The notes beneath the pieces were generated by a model. It saw nothing but the letters and a program-made list of their open reading frames with translations, was not told where the DNA came from and did no database searches. Positions 2,825-16,456 of a stretch of DNA of 16,510 bases are shown here, piece after piece. Position numbers and translations under genes: made by a program. Source of the DNA: an uncultured Lachnospiraceae bacterium (lineage in GTDB: Bacteria; Bacillota; Clostridia; Lachnospirales; Lachnospiraceae); assembly GCA_946537585.1 (NCBI GenBank), contig CAMNFX010000006.1, positions 1 to 16,510 on the forward strand, given 5' to 3'. Position 1 is the first letter of the stretch. Each line of letters starts with the position of its first letter.

Positions 2825-2899
2825 ACGGTACTCCTATTGTTGATCGTTTCCGGGTTCAGATATATAGTTCGTCCTGCTTTATTGCTCATGCACCTTAAC

Positions 2900-2957
2900 G
2901 TCGCAAAAACGTCCGTGACCCTGTACGCAAGCGTACGGTCCACGGCCGCTTTGCGAC
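2900..2957. repeat. Long imperfect inverted repeat between secA and prfB
   Basis: A 58-nt hairpin: outer arms GTCGCAAA / TTTGCGAC (2900-2907, 2950-2957), a middle CCGTG / CACGG with small bulges, and an inner GTACGC-AA-GCGTAC (2923-2936). No T tract follows on the minus strand, so it does not look like a standard terminator. It could be an RNA processing or stabilising structure in a secA-prfB message, or a dispersed palindrome. Confidence 0.7.
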
Positions 2958-2963
2958 CGGGCT

Positions 2964-5576
2964 TTATACCGGTAAGTTAAAGTCCAGCTTCTCTCCCGGC
3001 TTCATCATGCGGCCATGGCACTGCTTGAATTTTTTGCCGGAACCGCAGGGACAGGGGTCGTTGGGATAGATCTTGCGGATCTCGCGTTTTTTCGGTGCGC
3101 GGACCGCCGTGTCATCACGGTTGGTGCCTGTGATCTTGGCTGCAGGCTCACGCTCGATCTTCTGCTGTACCTGGATATGATACAGTACGCGGATCGTCTC
3201 TTCCTTGATGGAGGCCGCCATATCCTCGAACATTTCGTAGCCTGCGGTCTTGTATTCGACGAGCGGATCCTTCTGGCCGTAGGTCACAAGGCCGATGCCC
3301 TCCCGAAGCTGGGTCATGTCGTCGATATGGCTCATCCACTTGTTGTCGATGACCTTCAGCAGGACGACGCGCTCGGCTTCTCTTAACTGCTCCGGATCCG
3401 GGAACATGGCTTCCTTCTCCTCGTAGAGCTTGATCGCCTGTTCCTTCAGAAGCTGCTTCAGTGCAGGCTTCGACATGTGGTCAAACTCTTCCTGCGTGAG
3501 CCTTGTCGGGCGCAGCGGGATCACCGGCAGCAGCATGTTGTTGAGCGCGGAAATATCCCAGTCTGCAGGCTGCAGATCATCCGCGATCGTCATATCCACG
3601 GCATTGTCCACGATATCCTGGGCATAGCTGATGATGACATCACGCATGTTCAGACCGTCAAGCACCTTACGGCGGTCTGCATAGACGACATCACGCTGCT
3701 CGTTGTTGACCTGGTCAAACTTCAGGAGCTGTTCACGCACGCCGAAGTTGTTGGTCTCGATCTTCTTCTGGGCGTTTTCGATCGCCTTGGAAAGCATCCG
3801 GTGCTGGATCTCCTCGCCCTCTTCGACACCGAGCCTGTTGAACACATTCATCAGGTTGTCCGCGCCGAACAGGCGGAGGAGGTCATCCTCGAGGGACAGA
3901 TAGAACTTGGACTCACCGGGATCGCCCTGACGGCCGGAACGGCCGCGCAGCTGGTTGTCGATACGGCGGGACTCATGGCGCTCGGTTCCGATGATCTTCA
4001 GACCGCCAAGTGCTCTTGACTCCTCATCCAGCTTGATGTCGGTACCACGGCCGGCCATGTTGGTCGCAATGGTGACCGCCCCGTGCTGTCCTGCCTGCGC
4101 AACGATCTCCGCTTCCTTCTCGTGGAACTTTGCATTCAGCACATTGTGCGGGATGCCGCGCCGCTTCAGCATGCCGGACAGAAGCTCCGAGGTCTCGATG
4201 GTAATGGTGCCGACCAGGACCGGCTGGCCCTTGCGGTAGGACTCCTCCACGCTGTCGCAGACGGCGTTGAATTTCTCACGCTTGGTTTTATATACAGCAT
4301 CCTCATGATCGATCCTGGCGACAGGAACGTTGGTGGGGATCACGATAACATCCATTGCATAGATGTTGCGGAACTCCTTTTCCTCCGTCTGCGCGGTACC
4401 GGTCATACCGGCCTTCTTTGCAAATTTGTTAAAGAAGTTCTGGAAGGTGATCGTCGCAAGGGTGCGGCTCTCACGGCGGACATTTACATGCTCCTTGGCT
4501 TCGATCGCCTGGTGCAGGCCGTCCGAATAACGGCGGCCCGGCATGATACGTCCGGTAAATTCATCAACGATCAGGACCTCATCATCCTTGACCACGTAAT
4601 CCTTGTCCCTGTGCATTGCATAGTGCGCTCTCAGGGCCAGGATAATACAGTGCTGGATCTCAAGGTTCTCGGGATCCGCAAGGTTATCGATATGGAAGAA
4701 CTCCTCAACCTTATGGACGCCCTGCTCGGTCAGGGAAACATTCTTGTCCTTTTCATCGTAAATAAAGTCTCCGGTCTCCTCGATCTCTTCGCCGAGGATC
4801 GCGTTGATCTTGGAAAACTCCGCCGAAGCCTCGCCGCGCTCCAGGCGCCTTGCCAGCACATCGCACATCTCATAGAGCTTCGTGCTCTTTCCGGACTGGC
4901 CGGAAATGATCAGCGGCGTACGCGCTTCATCGATCAGGACAGAGTCCACCTCATCGATAATGGCATACTCAAGTCCGCGCAGCACAAGCTGCTCCTTATA
5001 GATCGCCATGTTGTCACGAAGATAGTCGAAGCCCAGCTCATTGTTCGTGACATAGGTAATATCACAGCCATACTGGCGCTTTCTCTCCGCGTTGTCCATG
5101 CTGTTTAAGACCACGCCGACGGACAGGCCGAGAAACTCATGCACCTTGCCCATCCACTCCGCATCACGCTTGGCGAGATAGTCGTTGACAGTAACGATAT
5201 GGACGCCCTTGCCGGTCAGCGCATTGAGGTAAGCCGGACAGGTAGAAACCAGGGTCTTTCCTTCACCGGTCTTCATCTCCGCGATACGTCCCTGATGCAG
5301 GACAATACCGCCGATCAGCTGTACACGGAAATGCTTCATTCCGAGGACTCTCCAGGCCGCCTCGCGGACCGTCGCAAAAGCCTCCGGAAGAATATCATCC
5401 AGGGTCTCCCCTGCTGCCAGACGTTCCCGGAACAGTGCGGTCTGCCCCTTCAGTTCCTCGTCCGTCATGGCCGCCATCTTCGGTTCGAGCGCCTCGATCT
5501 GATCCGCGATCGGATAGATCCTCTTCAGTTCTCGCTCGCTGTGCGTGCCGAATATCTTTTCAGTTAAGCTCGCCAT
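2964..5576 (-). CDS. secA: Preprotein translocase ATPase SecA
   Basis: SecA is the cytosolic motor that binds SecYEG and drives secretory proteins across the membrane with ATP. The 870-residue protein starts [10 protein letters not shown] and shows Walker A in MKTGEGKTL (101-109), the DEVD box (208-211) in [16 protein letters not shown], the second helicase half with [12 protein letters not shown] and [11 protein letters not shown], and a C-terminal zinc motif [14 protein letters not shown] with C842, C844, C853 and H854, which in other species contacts SecB-type partners or ribosomes. The length is normal and there is no frameshift. AAAGGA lies upstream of the ATG. It begins 35 bp after acoB with no terminator between them, so co-transcription with acoAB is possible. 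prfB follows. Confidence 0.99.
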
Positions 5577-6630: not shown

Positions 6631-7599
6631 TCAGACGTAGACTCGTTCCTCCATACCGTCCGGTTCCGGATAGGGCTGACGCAGAGCCCAGCTGACAACG
6701 TCCTTCATCTCGCGCTCTGCTGCCGCTTCGATCGTCTCCAGTTCATTTTCGCTGAAGATCTCTTCCTTCAGGAGGAAGTCACGGAAACGGACGATCGGTC
6801 CGTTATCCTTCCAGTACTGCATTTCCTTCTCCGTGCGGTAAACATTCTGATCCGATCTCGAATGGCCGGAAATGCGGTAGGTATGCAGGATCACAAAAGC
6901 AGGTCTGCCCTCTTCAAGTACGGCAGCCCTGGCCCTGCTGACGGTCTCATAGACTTCAAGTACATCGTTGCCGTCCGCCTCACAGGTAAGAAAGCCGAAT
7001 GCGGTCCCGCGCTTTTTGAAGTCAGGATCCGCCGCGGATCTTTCCACCGGCGTGGAAACGGCGTAATGGTTGTCCTCCAGGATAAAGATCACCGGCAGCT
7101 TCCAGGCGCCTGCCAGATTCATGGATTCAAGCACAGCACCGGAATTGGCCGCTCCGTCCCCGAAAAAGCTGACGGATACGCGGTCCGGGATCTTCTTCAG
7201 CCTGATGGAAAGCGCCGCGCCGCAGGCAGTGGGCACGCCGGCACCCACGATGCCGTTCGAGCCGATCACGCCGCAGCTTTTATCGCAGATATGCATGGAG
7301 CCGCCGATGCCGCCGTTTGTTCCCGAAGCACGTCCGAGGATCTCAGCCATCATCGGCTTTACGTCCACGCCCTTCCCGATGCACTCACCGTGTCCGCGGT
7401 GTGTTGTCAGAATATAGTCGTCTTTTTTGAGTGCGGCGGTGCTTCCGACCACGGAGGCCTCTTCGCCCACACAAAGATGAAGAGTACCGTGGATCAGGCC
7501 CCTCGCATAAAGTGCCTTAACTGACTCTTCGAAACGGTTGACCTTCAGCATCTTCTGCAGAAGGTCCAGATAGAATTCTTTATTGTATGAAGCTGTCAT
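6631..7599 (-). CDS. acoA: Thiamine-dependent 2-oxoacid/acetoin dehydrogenase E1 component, alpha subunit
   Basis: Alpha subunit partner of the downstream beta gene. With the ATG at 7599 it has 322 residues beginning MTASYNKEFYLDLLQKM. It shows the HLCVGEEA opening helix, RGHGECIGKG, GGSMHI, the TPP/Mg motif starting GDGAANSGAV (147-149) and ending in EDNHYAVST (N177), and the phosphorylation-loop-like GHSRSDQNVYR. A longer in-frame GTG start at 7641 exists but lies upstream of a TATACT -10-like box (7619-7624), and the family normally begins near the chosen Met, so the short form is preferred. The ribosome site is weak. The pair probably makes E1 of an acetoin, pyruvate or branched-chain complex; lipoyl E2 and E3 would have to be supplied from elsewhere. 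Confidence 0.88.
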   Translation of the reverse strand: MTASYNKEFYLDLLQKMLKVNRFEESVKALYARGLIHGTLHLCVGEEASVVGSTAALKKDDYILTTHRGHGECIGKGVDVKPMMAEILGRASGTNGGIGGSMHICDKSCGVIGSNGIVGAGVPTACGAALSIRLKKIPDRVSVSFFGDGAANSGAVLESMNLAGAWKLPVIFILEDNHYAVSTPVERSAADPDFKKRGTAFGFLTCEADGNDVLEVYETVSRARAAVLEEGRPAFVILHTYRISGHSRSDQNVYRTEKEMQYWKDNGPIVRFRDFLLKEEIFSENELETIEAAAEREMKDVVSWALRQPYPEPDGMEERVYV

Positions 7600-13861: not shown

Positions 13862-13888
13862 TACTTTCGCACGTCAGGTGCGGGATAT

Positions 13889-13960
13889 AGCGCTATAGCC
13901 AAACGGTAAGGCAGCGGACTCTGACTCCGTCATTTCAAGGTTCGAATCCTTGTAGCGCTG
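13889..13960 (+). tRNA. tRNA-Gln, anticodon CUG
   Basis: A full 72-nt cloverleaf: acceptor AGCGCTA / TAGCGCT perfectly paired, D arm GCC...GGC, anticodon stem GCGGA / TCCGT with loop CTCTGAC, T arm CAAGG-TTCGAAT-CCTTG and discriminator G. The anticodon at 13921-13923 is CTG, reading CAG. The 3' CCA is not encoded. The D arm, GGACTCTGACTCC anticodon arm and G73 match bacterial tRNA-Gln. It stands alone with its own promoter and terminator. Confidence 0.97.
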
Positions 13961-13962
13961 TG

Positions 13963-13997: not shown

Positions 13998-14013
13998 TGC
14001 ATGAGCTCTCAGA

Positions 14014-14063
14014 AAGCGTCGAATTTATGGGCGTATGATATACGCACAGTAAATCCGACGCTT
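14014..14063. repeat. 50-bp imperfect inverted repeat downstream of tRNA-Gln
   Basis: Outer arms AAGCGTC / GACGCTT (14014-14020, 14057-14063), middle ATTTA / TAAAT (14023-14027, 14050-14054) and inner GCGTAT-GAT-ATACGC (14031-14045) make one long hairpin with small internal loops. There is no gene here and no T tract. It lies 8 bp before the dispersed repeat at 14072. Confidence 0.7.
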
Positions 14064-14071
14064 GATGAGGC

Positions 14072-14183
14072 AACAAGTATGAGCAAAAAAGCCTCTCGCA
14101 GCGAAAGCAAGAGGGGCGATTTGCGAATGCTTGTTAGCGATGCGTGAGTTGCTGCGCAACGAAGCATCGCGAAGCTCACGCAT
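14072..14183 (+). repeat. Dispersed structured intergenic repeat, copy A
   Basis: First of two copies in this window (the other is at 16289-16382, minus strand). Stem I pairs AACAAGTAT (14072-14080) with ATGCTTGTT (14127-14135), nine pairs with one G-U as RNA. It encloses ATGAGCAAAAAAG (14079-14091) and the core GGGGCGATTTGCGAATG (14113-14129). Stem II follows, as ATGCGTGAG / CTCACGCAT (14140-14148, 14175-14183) or the competing GCGATGC / GCATCGC (14138-14144, 14164-14170), with inner GTTGC-TGC-GCAAC (14148-14160). A 22-codon reading frame starts at 14079 but is not kept in copy B, so coding is unlikely. Confidence 0.7.
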
Positions 14184-14196
14184 ATCTGCCGCTGTA

Positions 14197-14228
14197 TAAA
14201 ATGAGCCTGCCTCAGATGAGACAGGCTC
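14197..14228 (-). terminator. Intrinsic terminator of garR
   Basis: Stem GAGCCTG..CTC / GAG..CAGGCTC (14203-14213, 14218-14228) has one mismatch and an AGAT loop. On the minus strand it is followed by ATTTTAT. It lies 25 bp after the garR stop. Confidence 0.85.
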
Positions 14229-14253
14229 CATTTTAAGTATTCTGCTCCTATCC

Positions 14254-15138
14254 TTACTTGCTCTCGACAGTAACGTCTGCGAGCTTCTCGAAGTAGGTGA
14301 CCATGCTTGCCTGGTCGTCCATGAGATGTCCTGCCACCTTCAGTGACTGGAAGATCTCATACAGCATTGCGGTATACGGAACCGGGCAGTCGATCGCATG
14401 AGCGGTCTTTAAGACGTTGGTAAGGTCCTTATGGTTGACCTTGATGGTTCCGCCGGGCTTGAAGTTGCGTGCCACCATCATCGGAAGCTTTGCATCCATG
14501 GCTACGCTGCCTGCAAGTCCGCCTCTGATTGCCTCATATACCTTGACGGGATCTGCGCCTGCCTTGGCTGCAAATGTGAAGGCCTCGCCGACAACCGCGA
14601 TGTTGTTGTTGACGATGATCTGGTTGACCAGCTTGGTGATGGAGCCTGCGCCGGAGGGGCCTACCAGCAGTGCGGAAGAACCGAATGCATCAAATACGGG
14701 CTTTACCTTGTCAAATGCATCCTGATCGCCGCCGACCATGATCGCCAGTGTGCCGTCGATTGCCTTGGGCTCTCCGCCGGAAACCGGAGCATCGAGGAAC
14801 TTAAGTCCCTTCTCCTCAGCAAGGGCGTAGCAGTCACGGGACTCAGCTGCAGTAACAGAGCTTAAGTCTACAAAGATCGTGCCGGGCTTTGCGGTGGACG
14901 CAAATCCGTCCGGTCCGAACATAACGGACTTGGAAATCGCGCCGGTGGGGACCATGACCATGCAGATGTCGCACTCTGCGCCCATCTCAGCATAGGTAGC
15001 TCTCTTTGCGCCAAGCTTTACAAATTCAGCAATGACATCCTCTTCAAGAGCAAATACATCAAGGTCAAAACCGGCCTTCAGAATGTTCTTGCACATGGGG
15101 CTTCCCATAATACCAAGTCCGACAAATCCAACTCTCAT
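14254..15138 (-). CDS. garR: 2-hydroxy-3-oxopropionate (tartronate semialdehyde) reductase
   Basis: A 294-residue member of the beta-hydroxyacid dehydrogenase family, which reduces tartronate semialdehyde to D-glycerate with NAD(P)H in glycolate, glyoxylate or aldarate breakdown. It shows the dinucleotide motif GFVGLGIMGSPMCKNI (4-19), the substrate-binding DAPVSGGEPKAIDGTL (116-131), the catalytic lysine K169 in SITKLVNQ, and YEAIRGGLAGS...RNFKPGG. These stretches agree closely with E. coli GarR, more than with 3-hydroxyisobutyrate dehydrogenases, although that activity remains an alternative. The ATG at 15138 has AAAGGAAG 9 bp upstream; an in-frame extension to 15231 lies in the leader and is not family-like. 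It has its own promoter and terminator. No other glyoxylate pathway gene is visible here. Confidence 0.9.
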   Translation of the reverse strand: MRVGFVGLGIMGSPMCKNILKAGFDLDVFALEEDVIAEFVKLGAKRATYAEMGAECDICMVMVPTGAISKSVMFGPDGFASTAKPGTIFVDLSSVTAAESRDCYALAEEKGLKFLDAPVSGGEPKAIDGTLAIMVGGDQDAFDKVKPVFDAFGSSALLVGPSGAGSITKLVNQIIVNNNIAVVGEAFTFAAKAGADPVKVYEAIRGGLAGSVAMDAKLPMMVARNFKPGGTIKVNHKDLTNVLKTAHAIDCPVPYTAMLYEIFQSLKVAGHLMDDQASMVTYFEKLADVTVESK

Positions 15139-15263
15139 CTCTTTATACTTCCTTTCTGGTGGAATTACTGCACCGGTATAAATGCCGGTAAACATGATTG
15201 CTGCAGGCATTATTCCTGCACACGCAGGCACAGGCTCAAAGGAGCTCTGCTTTTGCGCTACCG
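15139..15263 (-). other. Long structured 5' leader of garR
   Basis: From the predicted start near 15263 to the ATG is about 125 nt. It can form ACCGG / CCGGT (15172-15176, 15185-15189) and two competing hairpins sharing one arm: CTGCAGG / CCTGCA(G) (15201-15220) and CCTGC / GCAGG (15215-15228). No T tract typical of an attenuator is seen, and I do not recognise a known riboswitch. Confidence 0.4.
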
Positions 15264-15301
15264 TGTACTATTATATCAATTGAACGTATAAAAGTACACG
15301 G
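15261..15301 (-). promoter_or_regulatory. garR promoter framed by an 8-bp inverted repeat
   Basis: On the minus strand TGATATAAT gives an extended -10 with perfect TATAAT (15270-15275); the -35 (TGTACT at 17 bp) is weak. Perfect arms CCGTGTAC (15261-15268) and GTACACGG (15294-15301) flank it, and a TCAATTGA palindrome (15276-15283) sits in the spacer. A regulator binding site is plausible. Confidence 0.6.
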
Positions 15302-15320
15302 ACGAATAAAGAAAAAACAG

Positions 15321-15353
15321 AAAAATACCCGGATCGTCATCCGACTCCGGGTA
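15321..15353 (-). terminator. Intrinsic terminator of the crotonase gene
   Basis: Stem TACCCGG / CCGGGTA (15347-15353, 15326-15332) is followed on the minus strand by TTTTT (15321-15325). It is 125 bp after the crotonase stop. The stretch between (15354-15477) shows only small GC-rich palindromes and no gene that I can support. Confidence 0.8.
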
Positions 15354-15477
15354 CTGTATACTTTGATGATCTTTTGCTTTACTGATAAAGCCGTAACTTA
15401 AACGGATAGAATGCTCCGCGTTCTTCTGAATACGCCCGGCGCCTGCTGTCCGGGGACCCCCGCTGTATTCGTCCTGC

Positions 15478-16245
15478 TTATTTTTTCTTTCGCTTTGCGA
15501 GGAAGGCTGCCATACGGTCGACTCTTTCCTGTGAGGAAAATACCCCGTCAAAGAGCTTGCGTTCATAACTCAGGGCATCCTCAAGGGTCATGTCCATGCC
15601 GTCGCGGATCAGACGCTTTAACGCAGTCTGGGAGGCCAGGGACTTTTTCATCATATTCTGTGCCATCCTGACAGCTTCATCCATCAGCTCCGAGGGCTTT
15701 GTGATCTTGCCGACCAGGCCCATGTCGTAGGCTCTCTGCGCATTGATCCATTCCTCCGTCATGCAGAAATACTGCGCGCGGCTCACTCCGATCAGCTTGG
15801 AAAGGCGGACTGCACCGCCATATCCCGGGATCACGCCGAGGGACGGCTCCGGAAAGGCAAAGACCGCGTTGTCCGCAGCGATACGGATATCACAGGCAAG
15901 AGCAAGCTCAAACCCGCCTCCGAAGGCATAGCCGTTGATCGCAGCGATCACAGGCTTTGGGAGCATCTCGATCTCACGCATCAGCGCATGCCCGTTGGCG
16001 ATCATGGAGCGGCCTTCTGCGGGCGTCTCTGCCTGCATCTCCTCGATATCCTGGCCGGCCGCGAAGGCCCTGTCTCCTGCTCCCCGGATGACCACGACTT
16101 TGATCTCTTCCGTCTGGGAAGCATACTCGATCGCATCCCGAAGCTCGCTGACCGCATCAATATTAAGCGCGTTTAAAACATGCGGGCGGTTTAAGGTGAT
16201 CAGTTCAATGCCGTCGCCGGTTTCAACAATGATGTTCTCGTACAA
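15478..16245 (-). CDS. Enoyl-CoA hydratase/isomerase family protein (crotonase)
   Basis: A 255-residue crotonase-fold protein. Members hydrate trans-2-enoyl-CoA, for example crotonyl-CoA in butyrate formation. It has the N-terminal LNRPHVLNALN, the oxyanion-hole segments AFAAGQDIEEM and INGYAFGGGFELALACDIRIA, and both glutamates expected of a true hydratase: one in GGGFELAL (matching Glu144 of rat enzyme) and one in FPEPSLGVIPGYGG (matching Glu164). It ends in a basic LAKRKKK. The start is TTG at 16245, with AGAGGA 5 bp upstream; an in-frame TGA lies 18 bp further up, so no ATG is available. It is upstream of garR but separated from it by a terminator and promoter. Short-chain hydratase is likely; isomerase or hydrolase activity is possible. 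Confidence 0.92.
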   Translation of the reverse strand: MYENIIVETGDGIELITLNRPHVLNALNIDAVSELRDAIEYASQTEEIKVVVIRGAGDRAFAAGQDIEEMQAETPAEGRSMIANGHALMREIEMLPKPVIAAINGYAFGGGFELALACDIRIAADNAVFAFPEPSLGVIPGYGGAVRLSKLIGVSRAQYFCMTEEWINAQRAYDMGLVGKITKPSELMDEAVRMAQNMMKKSLASQTALKRLIRDGMDMTLEDALSYERKLFDGVFSSQERVDRMAAFLAKRKKK

Positions 16246-16288
16246 GGTGGTCCTCTTTTCTCAATAATGGTTCTGTTGCATAAGCTGC

Positions 16289-16382
16289 GTGCTGCTCCAC
16301 GCTTCGCGTTCTCGCAGCACTCACGGACATTCGGAAATCGCCCCGCTCACTTTGTTCGCGTGTCTTTTTTCCTCATGTCCGT
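16289..16382 (-). repeat. Dispersed structured intergenic repeat, copy B
   Basis: Second copy of the element at 14072-14183, on the opposite strand. Read on the minus strand: stem I ACGGACAT / ATGTCCGT (16375-16382, 16323-16330; 8 perfect pairs) encloses ATGAGGAAAAAAG (16364-16376) and the core GGGGCGATTTCCGAATG (16328-16344), identical to copy A but for one base. Stem II is GTGCTGC / GCAGCAC (16314-16320, 16289-16295) with inner ACGC-GAA-GCGT (16299-16309). Stem sequences differ from copy A, yet pairing is kept. Confidence 0.7.
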
Positions 16383-16404
16383 TGCCAGTCCAAATGTCCG
16401 CATC

Positions 16405-16427
16405 TGCCATTATGCAGGCATATGGCA
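16405..16427. repeat. Small hairpin after an argS-like gene end
   Basis: TGCCAT-T-ATGC / GCAT-ATGGCA (16405-16415, 16418-16427) forms a 10-bp stem with one bulged T. It is flanked by a direct repeat GCATCTGC (16400-16407, 16425-16432). There is no T tract on either side, so terminator function is doubtful. Confidence 0.5.
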
Positions 16428-16456
16428 TCTGCGTCATTCGTCCGGAGCTTATGCGC

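Follow-up and report, generated by a model that had tools for sequence, protein, structure and literature searches.

The window analysed here is a stretch of 16,510 nucleotides from an uncultured Lachnospiraceae bacterium (contig CAMNFX010000006.1), in which two members of the Rfam family RF01699, the Clostridiales-1 RNA, were identified. Copy A occupies 14002..14178 on the plus strand (83.7 bits) and copy B 16280..16452 on the minus strand (85.7 bits), and both match the full model (1-166) above the gathering cut-off of 48 bits. Copy A starts 40 bp past a tRNA-Gln (ctg) gene (13888..13961, plus strand, found by ARAGORN), directly after the T-run of that tRNA's terminator. Copy B is flanked by the end of a minus-strand reading frame, as judged by eye, and by a minus-strand enoyl-CoA hydratase/isomerase gene starting at 16245 (PF00378). 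In the open-reading-frame list, reading frames overlap both copies. What is likely a third copy, truncated to the left end, P2 and the start of P3, lies at about 2876..2968 on the minus strand, with a score of 24 bits (E 0.13) that is below the cut-off. Its 5' half resembles locus L102 when read by eye, and it overlaps the stop codon (2964-2966) of the reading frame 2964-5576, which we take to be secA from its sequence.

Each of the two full copies, about 175 nt long, forms three hairpins enclosed by an outer stem. The initial annotation had described two structured copies, and the stems it quoted, their folding and the exact core match were all recovered. However, its intervals were too short, its "closing stem" belongs to P3, the second of the three hairpins, with P2 and the outer stem P1 lying outside, and its statement that no named family was recognised is superseded by RF01699. 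In copy A, the hairpins are P2 (14008..14069; minimum-energy fold and Rfam structure line), P3 (14072..14135; fold) with a tandem G.A core (14081-14082 opposite 14125-14126), and P4 (14137..14170; fold). In copy B, P3 with its tandem G.A core spans 16323..16382 (fold and cmscan alignment) and P4 spans 16289..16320 (fold), both on the minus strand. The z-scores of minimum-energy folding are -8.9 for copy A and -6.4 for copy B. The shared 17-base core is found at 14113-14129 (plus) and 16328-16344 (minus) with 0 mismatches; when up to 2 mismatches are allowed, nothing else in the window matches, and none of 200 shuffles contained two matches. Both copies are bounded by the closing stem P1 alone. 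Neither a right arm nor a target-site duplication was found at copy A or copy B, and the 5' strand of P2 in copy A stands where relatives have their left terminal repeat. The ATGAG...CGAA motif has some likeness to a hammerhead, but the hammerhead core includes CUG, which is missing here, and this candidate was dropped.

The family is abundant and patchy. The source genome (assembly 59% complete) contains 14 RF01699 matches, 10 of them over the cut-off. Matches were found in 24 of 61 genomes and in 13 of 25 within the genus, where the number per genome ranges from 0 to at least 35 (at most 38 candidates were scored per genome), and in a draw across Lachnospiraceae the element was matched in 215 of 397 genomes. 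Copy B is absent from the same site in both relatives (G001 and G024) in which its two flanks were found together. Short derivatives without the RNA core also exist (L244). Among plasmids, one named record carries the element, Butyrivibrio fibrisolvens plasmid pNP243, in 3 places. In the phage collection 13 records have it (the ten inspected are unannotated faecal contigs), and a pattern scan of viral contigs gave one contig.

In many copies the element extends about 20-35 nt beyond the RF01699 model, and its layout is TGATnnnnGGGTCAAAAG (or TGAGnnnnGGGACAAATG), three hairpins, a right arm and a final ATCA or CTCA. By pattern search, a right arm mirroring the left end was detected 3' of the model in 59 of 147 copies; the other 88 were left out of the duplication count, 68 for having no arm and 20, copy B included, for a start unlike the known ends. 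Exact target-site duplications of at least 5 bp flank 33 of the 59 armed copies, from 20 genomes (2000 shuffles: mean 3.0, maximum 10), and duplications of at least 6 bp flank 31 (shuffle mean 2.0, maximum 7). They are mostly AT-rich, and one of them, ATCTGA, belongs to locus L005 of the source genome. A first, smaller set had given exact 5-mer duplications in 10 of 18 copies (shuffle maximum 5). The remaining 26 armed copies have no exact duplication, and a few of the 59 (L001, L348, L028) look like chance pattern matches. In a hunt for an autonomous element, lone terminal repeats were also fetched from seven genomes (G004, G011, G022, G026, G027, G031, G032); besides L170 (G016), copies of the element and truncated or deleted versions of it were all that was noticed.

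An IS1182 transposase was first suspected as the mover from the single locus L170. At that locus an inner repeat, ACCTTGAAAATCTAATACAA, had been considered the true end of the insertion sequence and the outer repeat an older palindrome; this doubt was dropped because the eight best matches of a family-wide search all have the outer repeat. In these eight loci together with L170, the left repeat is present in 9 of 9 (14-18 of 18 positions) and both ends in 8 of 9 (7 by script and L309 by reading; L308 runs off its contig), while both ends occurred in 0 of 4000 random paired windows. The transposase ends are of the same two kinds as those of the element, the first kind in eight loci and the second in one, and the end TGAGTTGCCCGACAAATG at L307 is identical in 18 of 18 positions with the right end of L005. 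Duplications of 5-7 bp were found at four transposase loci (ATGACA, ATCAATA and ATATAA by script, TATCA at L309 by reading), and 3 of the 7 copies with both flanks readable have no duplication beside their ends. The weaker or broken loci (L193, L310-L313, L316, L317) have a two-sided repeat (L312), a one-sided one, or none that is clear.

Six of the proteins score 120.8-148.2 bits against the NCBIfam profile NF033551 (IS1182), over most of the transposase length, and one (L170) contains the DDE transposase domains DUF772 and DDE_Tnp_1_6. The curated cut-off is 270 bits, and on this score the predicted transposase is IS1182-like and not a member of IS1182. Five of the nine host genomes have element matches (G016, G554, G561, G715, G764). 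In the four transposase genomes inspected, the ends of the element are like those of the resident transposase in G554 and G715, and unlike them in G561 and G764, with three element copies each. Among the 13 genomes with at least 14 element matches, 12 lack any match to the transposase (including the 59% complete source genome, G020, G026 and G027), and the thirteenth, G004, has only a 39-residue fragment. The IS1182 profile matches 21 of 61 relatives, none of them G000, G004, G011, G020, G026 or G027. In the family draw, element and transposase are not significantly associated by presence: the element occurs in 16 of 24 genomes with the transposase vs 199 of 373 without it (Fisher p 0.29; lists compared by eye).

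The fold itself is conserved through compensatory change. Of 55 representatives, 49 could be anchored (6 rows were dropped), and in all 49 the tandem G.A core is invariant, GA opposite GA. The N-N pair beside this core is Watson-Crick in 49 of 49 copies with four pair types (shuffle maximum 31), and 16 of 17 RNAalifold pairs have changes on both sides. The base of P2 has the left terminal repeat as its 5' strand, and the exact partner strand of this repeat is present in 41 of 77 copies (shuffle mean 17, maximum 25; 70 of 147 were left out for having no repeat motif or core). Of these 77 copies, 37 have the GGGTC repeat, 24 of them with an exact partner, while GGACG has one in 0 of 4. In minimum-energy folds of 51 full elements, 425 of the 510 bases of the left repeat pair locally and 0 pair with the right repeat. 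The initial annotation had proposed selection on structure, either as a non-coding RNA or as a transposable palindromic unit. The covariation in the anchored representatives bears out selection on structure, and the terminal repeats and duplications of many copies bear out the transposable unit; non-coding RNA and transposable unit are not exclusive here. Further copies and compensatory stem changes were both found, yet position -4 of P3 is paired in only 31 of 49 anchored copies.

From the above, Clostridiales-1 is best explained, with a probability of about 0.7, as a short non-autonomous transposon (MITE) that is predicted to be moved in trans by an IS1182-like transposase and whose fold probably works in host transcripts. 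Terminal inverted repeats, target-site duplications, scattered copies with differing sites and an insertion sequence with the same ends are all found across the family. The IS1182-like transposase or a near relative would move the element in trans, although movement itself was never observed. The terminal repeats may diverge with transposase lineages, the RNA partner strand following, which would explain stems that change sequence while pairing holds. In RNA, the fold probably prevents the two terminal repeats from coming together, and an insertion would then be a compact untranslated domain and not a long duplex, and insertions in the sense direction would be retained. We put forward more tentatively that the terminal repeat serves both as the DNA site of the transposase and as a strand of a working RNA stem, so that a change of specificity would force a change of the RNA, and that a family-wide mobile element thus brings with it a sense-strand RNA device that is under selection and renders its insertions harmless or beneficial to host genes.

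A substantial minority possibility is that these are DNA palindromes only, in which the hairpins matter as DNA (as a cruciform or single-stranded hairpin that a transposase recognises, or as arms that template switching keeps similar) and the RNA plays no part. IS1272, which is assigned to the IS1182 family, has stem-loops as its targets (PMC5678879, in the parts consulted), and tandem and partial copies of the element adjoin one another. G.U pairs are also scarce despite many double changes, at 2.0% of element pairs vs 4.1% in 16 tRNAs from the same loci, and this scarcity fits a DNA palindrome equally well. However, G.U pairs exceed A.C pairs on the core strand (39 vs 12, p 2e-4; 47 of 55 copies, 8 dropped), though one strand as single-stranded DNA could also yield that. 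In addition, among 82 usable copies (23 of 105 were dropped for lacking two neighbour genes or overlapping a gene), 63 sit between codirectional genes, 48 in sense and 15 in antisense orientation (p 4e-5; gene calls are crude). Together, the sense bias and the excess of G.U over A.C suggest selection on RNA, and the invariant non-Watson-Crick GA/GA core would be needless in a pure palindrome.

Copies bounded by P1 only, namely A, B and the G020 copies that follow terminator T-runs, could have moved by a second route, such as IS1272-like stem-loop replacement or tandem slippage, which we regard as less likely than not. A T-run lies within 16 nt upstream of 13 of 20 G020 copies vs 226 of 4200 random non-coding positions, and the positions of copy A behind a terminator and of both window copies without duplications agree with such a route. 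But no transposase is linked to P1-only copies, and decay of the right arm explains the same data; copies A and B may be older members with the right arm lost, or members moved in some other way.

It is improbable that the copies are cellular genes for trans-acting small RNAs, as the Rfam type line "Gene; sRNA" states, that merely duplicate. Promoters whose transcripts would begin within the element precede some copies (for example, TTGACA-17-TATAAT at L050), and upstream promoter scores beat those of displaced windows (4.4 vs 5.5 mismatches of 12; 43 copies). However, these promoters are mostly poor, with at least 4 mismatches in 34 of 43 copies, and exact target-site duplications, sites without the element and the range of matches within one genus argue against this explanation. 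A promoter at the element start was rejected as a general feature, being real in a few copies and weak on average. It is very improbable that the copies are REP/BIME-like palindromes with a Y1 (RAYT or IS200-type) transposase as their mover: they are likewise intergenic and palindromic with tandem partial forms, and 32 of 61 relatives have Y1 genes, but no linkage was seen, with no Y1 match in the copy-bearing G000, G010 and G026 and a single sub-threshold RF01699 match around 16 Y1 loci, and direct duplications are not expected from Y1 transposition.

If Clostridiales-1 is such a transposon, a listed RNA family gains a testable identity, and in the major gut family Lachnospiraceae the "sRNA gene" annotation would be altered, since many matches would be mobile-element copies. 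Covariation, which is usually taken to prove that an RNA is functional, is here kept by a mobile element, and this raises the question of whether selection acts on the RNA or on the DNA. The table of Weinberg et al. 2010 (PMC2864571) lists Clostridiales-1 as a likely RNA that is not cis-regulatory and gives no function, and we found none in print since 2010. Among the titles and abstract openings searched, with most subscription journals outside the search, none linked Clostridiales-1 (RF01699) with IS1182 or MITE.

Compared with RF01699 as published, many copies here are part of larger units bounded by terminal repeats and target-site duplications. As far as the consulted parts of a review describe them (PMC10969869), bacterial MITEs are likewise non-autonomous, with AT-rich targets, direct repeats, stem-loop transcripts and an insertion sequence acting in trans; those features do not include a fold that covaries throughout a bacterial family around an invariant G.A core, and that text has no word beginning with Clostridi or Rfam. 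The likeness to IS1272/IS1182 consists of a profile match over most of the transposase length at a score below the curated cut-off. Three new IS1272 insertions replaced stem-loops without duplication (PMC5678879, same parts), whereas insertion-sequence and MITE copies here have duplications of 5-7 bp. BOX and RUP of Streptococcus pneumoniae, compared by description and not by sequence and from a different host family, are in the sections consulted (PMC3049150) also short, intergenic and multi-copy, with terminal inverted repeats, target-site duplications and strongly folded transcripts. However, the terminal repeats of BOX and RUP are described as hybridised to one another, while the left repeat of Clostridiales-1 is predicted to fold locally, and BOX and RUP are enriched between convergent genes (PMC3049150), while 63 of 82 Clostridiales-1 copies lie between codirectional ones.

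The two structured elements in the window, copy A (14002–14178, plus strand) and copy B (16280–16452, minus strand), match the Rfam model of Clostridiales-1 RNA (RF01699; cut-off 48 bits) over its whole length with 83.7 and 85.7 bits, respectively, so they belong to a named family, which the initial annotation had not recognised. In the predicted fold of both copies, stem P1 closes a structure with the hairpins P2, P3 and P4 (z -8.9 and -6.4). The earlier description of a structured element in two copies is retained, while its extent is revised, for the region given covers P3 and P4 only; the shared 17-base core occurs twice within the window as described (0.01 expected). Clostridiales-1 is described, in a passage of Weinberg et al. 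2010 (PMC2864571), as a likely RNA from Clostridiales and human gut that is not cis-regulatory. Its type in Rfam is sRNA, and no function was found in the literature searched by title and abstract opening. A third piece at about 2876–2968 (minus strand), likely a truncated element, scores below threshold (24 bits, E 0.13); the left end, P2 and the beginning of P3 were recognised by reading. The stop codon TAA of the upstream frame 2964–5576, which we take to be secA, falls within the left end of this piece.

Further copies, for which a search of this genome and its relatives had been suggested, were found. In the own assembly, of 1.3 Mb and 59% completeness, there are 14 RF01699 matches, 10 of them above the cut-off. 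Matches exist in at least 13 of 25 genomes within the genus, at least 24 of 61 compared genomes (own included; 0 to at least 35 per genome, with alike genome sizes) and at least 215 of 397 genomes drawn from the family (above the cut-off in at least 177). Other families of the order contain the element in at least 2 of 24 genomes, and a draw of 398 genomes from the phylum gave at least 4 matching genomes, all from the same family, of which the draw lists five members. Three BLAST matches come from plasmid pNP243 of Butyrivibrio fibrisolvens D1 (NZ_CP146964.1), and the one viewed (63111–63304) is upstream of an aldehyde dehydrogenase gene; this plasmid and strain can be named as a test system for the element. 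In an IMG/VR contig (L301), a core match (7050–7086) is located next to three reading frames resembling serine recombinases by eye, and the contig is perhaps an integrative element, not a virus.

Copy B is absent from the same site in two relatives (G001 and G024), both of which retain the start of the hydratase gene and the upstream frame's end; only one flank was recovered from the remaining relatives. At the site of copy A, no element was seen by reading behind tRNA-Gln and its terminator in the 15 relatives keeping both, and this comparison is weaker than that for copy B because the downstream genes differ. In 92 of 105 copies, at most 30% of the element lies within a crude reading frame; the flanks are 85% coding.

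The structure of the element is conserved. We summarized 55 representatives (54 below 0.78 on an in-house similarity score, plus copy B), 49 of which were usable when anchored on the motif alone, blind to pairing. GA opposite GA is invariant in the anchored copies, all 49 of which have a Watson-Crick pair adjoining this G.A core of P3 (shuffle mean 22.7, maximum 31); this pair is of four types, CG in 25 copies, GC in 13, TA in 8 and AT in 3. P3 pairs -3, -5, -6 and -7 are formed in 46, 43, 47 and 45 of the 49 copies, and pair -4 in just 31 (shuffle mean 25, maximum 30), with A frequently opposite G. RNAalifold predicted 17 pairs from an unfitted alignment, 16 of them changed on both sides, which, together with the G.A-adjacent pair, bears out the initial annotation's view that sequence changed and pairing was kept. 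P1 and P2 were not recovered by RNAalifold from this alignment, probably due to misalignment by MAFFT, and pair counts of P1 depend on the Rfam boundaries.

Wobble pairs were counted in 47 of the 55 copies with a scheme neutral between G.U and A.C, giving 39 G.U versus 12 A.C pairs (p 2e-4; 33 versus 9 from P2). This excess is what would be expected if the core strand acted as RNA, or else as single-stranded DNA. G.U pairs are rare, at 2.0% of element pairs versus 4.1% in 16 tRNAs from the same loci. By crude gene calls, 61 of 82 usable copies are sense and 21 antisense relative to the downstream gene, and between codirectional genes the numbers are 48 and 15 (p 4e-5); genome G026 on its own gives 15 and 0, and leaving out G020 gives 41 and 12. 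Two copies, L050 1467–1678 (minus) and L038 from 1501 (plus), come directly after consensus-like promoters (TTGACA-17-TATAAT and TTGACA-17-TATAGT), from which transcription would start in or at the element.

Many copies are transposons extending further on the right, where an arm after the element body mirrors the left end, for example TGATACCAGGGTCAAAAG on the left and TGATGTTGGGGTCAAAAG (reverse complement) on the right in L050. In a survey of 147 copies (105 + 42), an arm was recognised in 59 and none in 68, while 20 start unlike known ends. Exact target-site duplications of at least 5 bp are found in 33 of the 59 armed copies (20 genomes) and of at least 6 bp in 31, with maxima of 10 and 7 in 2000 shuffles; 26 armed copies have no exact duplication, and a few, namely L001, L348 and L028, are apparent chance hits of the pattern. 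L005 is the one armed copy with a duplication (ATCTGA) in the own genome, and the same check found neither right arm nor duplication at copies A and B. Elements, whole or partial, are arrayed head to tail at L065 (G027), L026 (G057), L016 (G031) and G554:C50:209640-210086.

An IS1182-like transposase is the likely partner of the element. A 532-aa transposase of genome G016 (locus L170) is flanked by element-type ends, and a search with it gave 24 carriers at E <= 1e-30 in the 397 family genomes. These transposases are called IS1182-like because six of them score 121–148 bits with the NCBIfam IS1182 profile, below its cut-off of 270, and one protein contains DUF772 and DDE_Tnp_1_6 domains. All of nine loci (the eight best hits among the 24 carriers and L170) have the left end, which agrees with the canonical repeat of the respective kind at 14–18 of 18 positions; a script located both ends in seven of them, separate inspection added L309, and the L308 locus stops at a contig end. 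None of 4000 random paired windows carries both ends. Duplications are ATGACA (L303), ATCAATA (L304), ATATAA (L305) and TATCA (L309, by eye), and none adjoins the ends at L302, L306 and L307; the L307 flanks have CTGTTTCTGT in common, 8 bp further out from the ends. A second kind of end at L307, TGAGTTGCCCGACAAATG, equals the right end of L005 over 18 positions. Other observations speak against this partnership. Among four genomes with three to six copies inspected each, element ends resembling those of the resident transposase are present in G554 and G715 and were not seen in G561 and G764. Element matches exist in 5 of the 9 transposase hosts. Across the family draw, the two are unassociated (element in 16 of 24 carriers versus 199 of 373 others, p 0.29). 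In the set of 61 compared genomes, 12 of the 13 having at least 14 element matches gave no transposase match, the 13th only a fragment. We infer that the element would be moved in trans by such a transposase.

The base of P2 is formed by the left terminal repeat, whose exact partner lies within the P2 3' strand in 41 of 77 readable copies (shuffle mean 17.2, maximum 25). The commonest repeat, GGGTC (37 of 77), has a partner in 24 copies, and GGACG in 0 of 4. In minimum-energy folds of 51 full elements, the right repeat is never the partner of a left-repeat base: of 510 such bases, 425 are in local pairs and the other 85 remain unpaired. The terminal repeats might thus drift along with the transposase, with the RNA partner strand following, a possible origin of the sequence changes in the stems. 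The RNA core may be dispensable for movement, because very short derivatives like L244 (from 1490, G031) have both terminal repeats and one hairpin without the core. Another short derivative lacking the core, with one terminal repeat and one hairpin, is located near 4059–4076 of L229 (G026).

A shorter repeat family has the same core (ATGAGnAAGnAGG...CCGGATTnCGAATG) and different outer arms (GTCTGC/GCAGAC), and looks like a separate lineage. It is found at L011 78–226, L012 1501–1638, L013 1239–1323 and L014 in the own genome, with sub-threshold RF01699 matches there, and at L035 (G008). At a Y1 transposase locus (L140, G028), one hairpin model has two sub-threshold matches, flanking the gene, and a DUF3800-XI RNA match is above its own cut-off (the three places are 1016–1082, 2175–2241 and 3055–3101); this is possibly a separate repeat system.

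The P1-only copies, among them both of the window and those of G020, may be decayed or may move by another way. In G020, 13 of 20 copies come after a T-run, versus 226 of 4200 random non-coding positions. A second route of movement is thinkable for P1-only copies by analogy, because IS1272, assigned to the IS1182 family, is reported in a passage of PMC5678879 to replace stem-loops without duplication.
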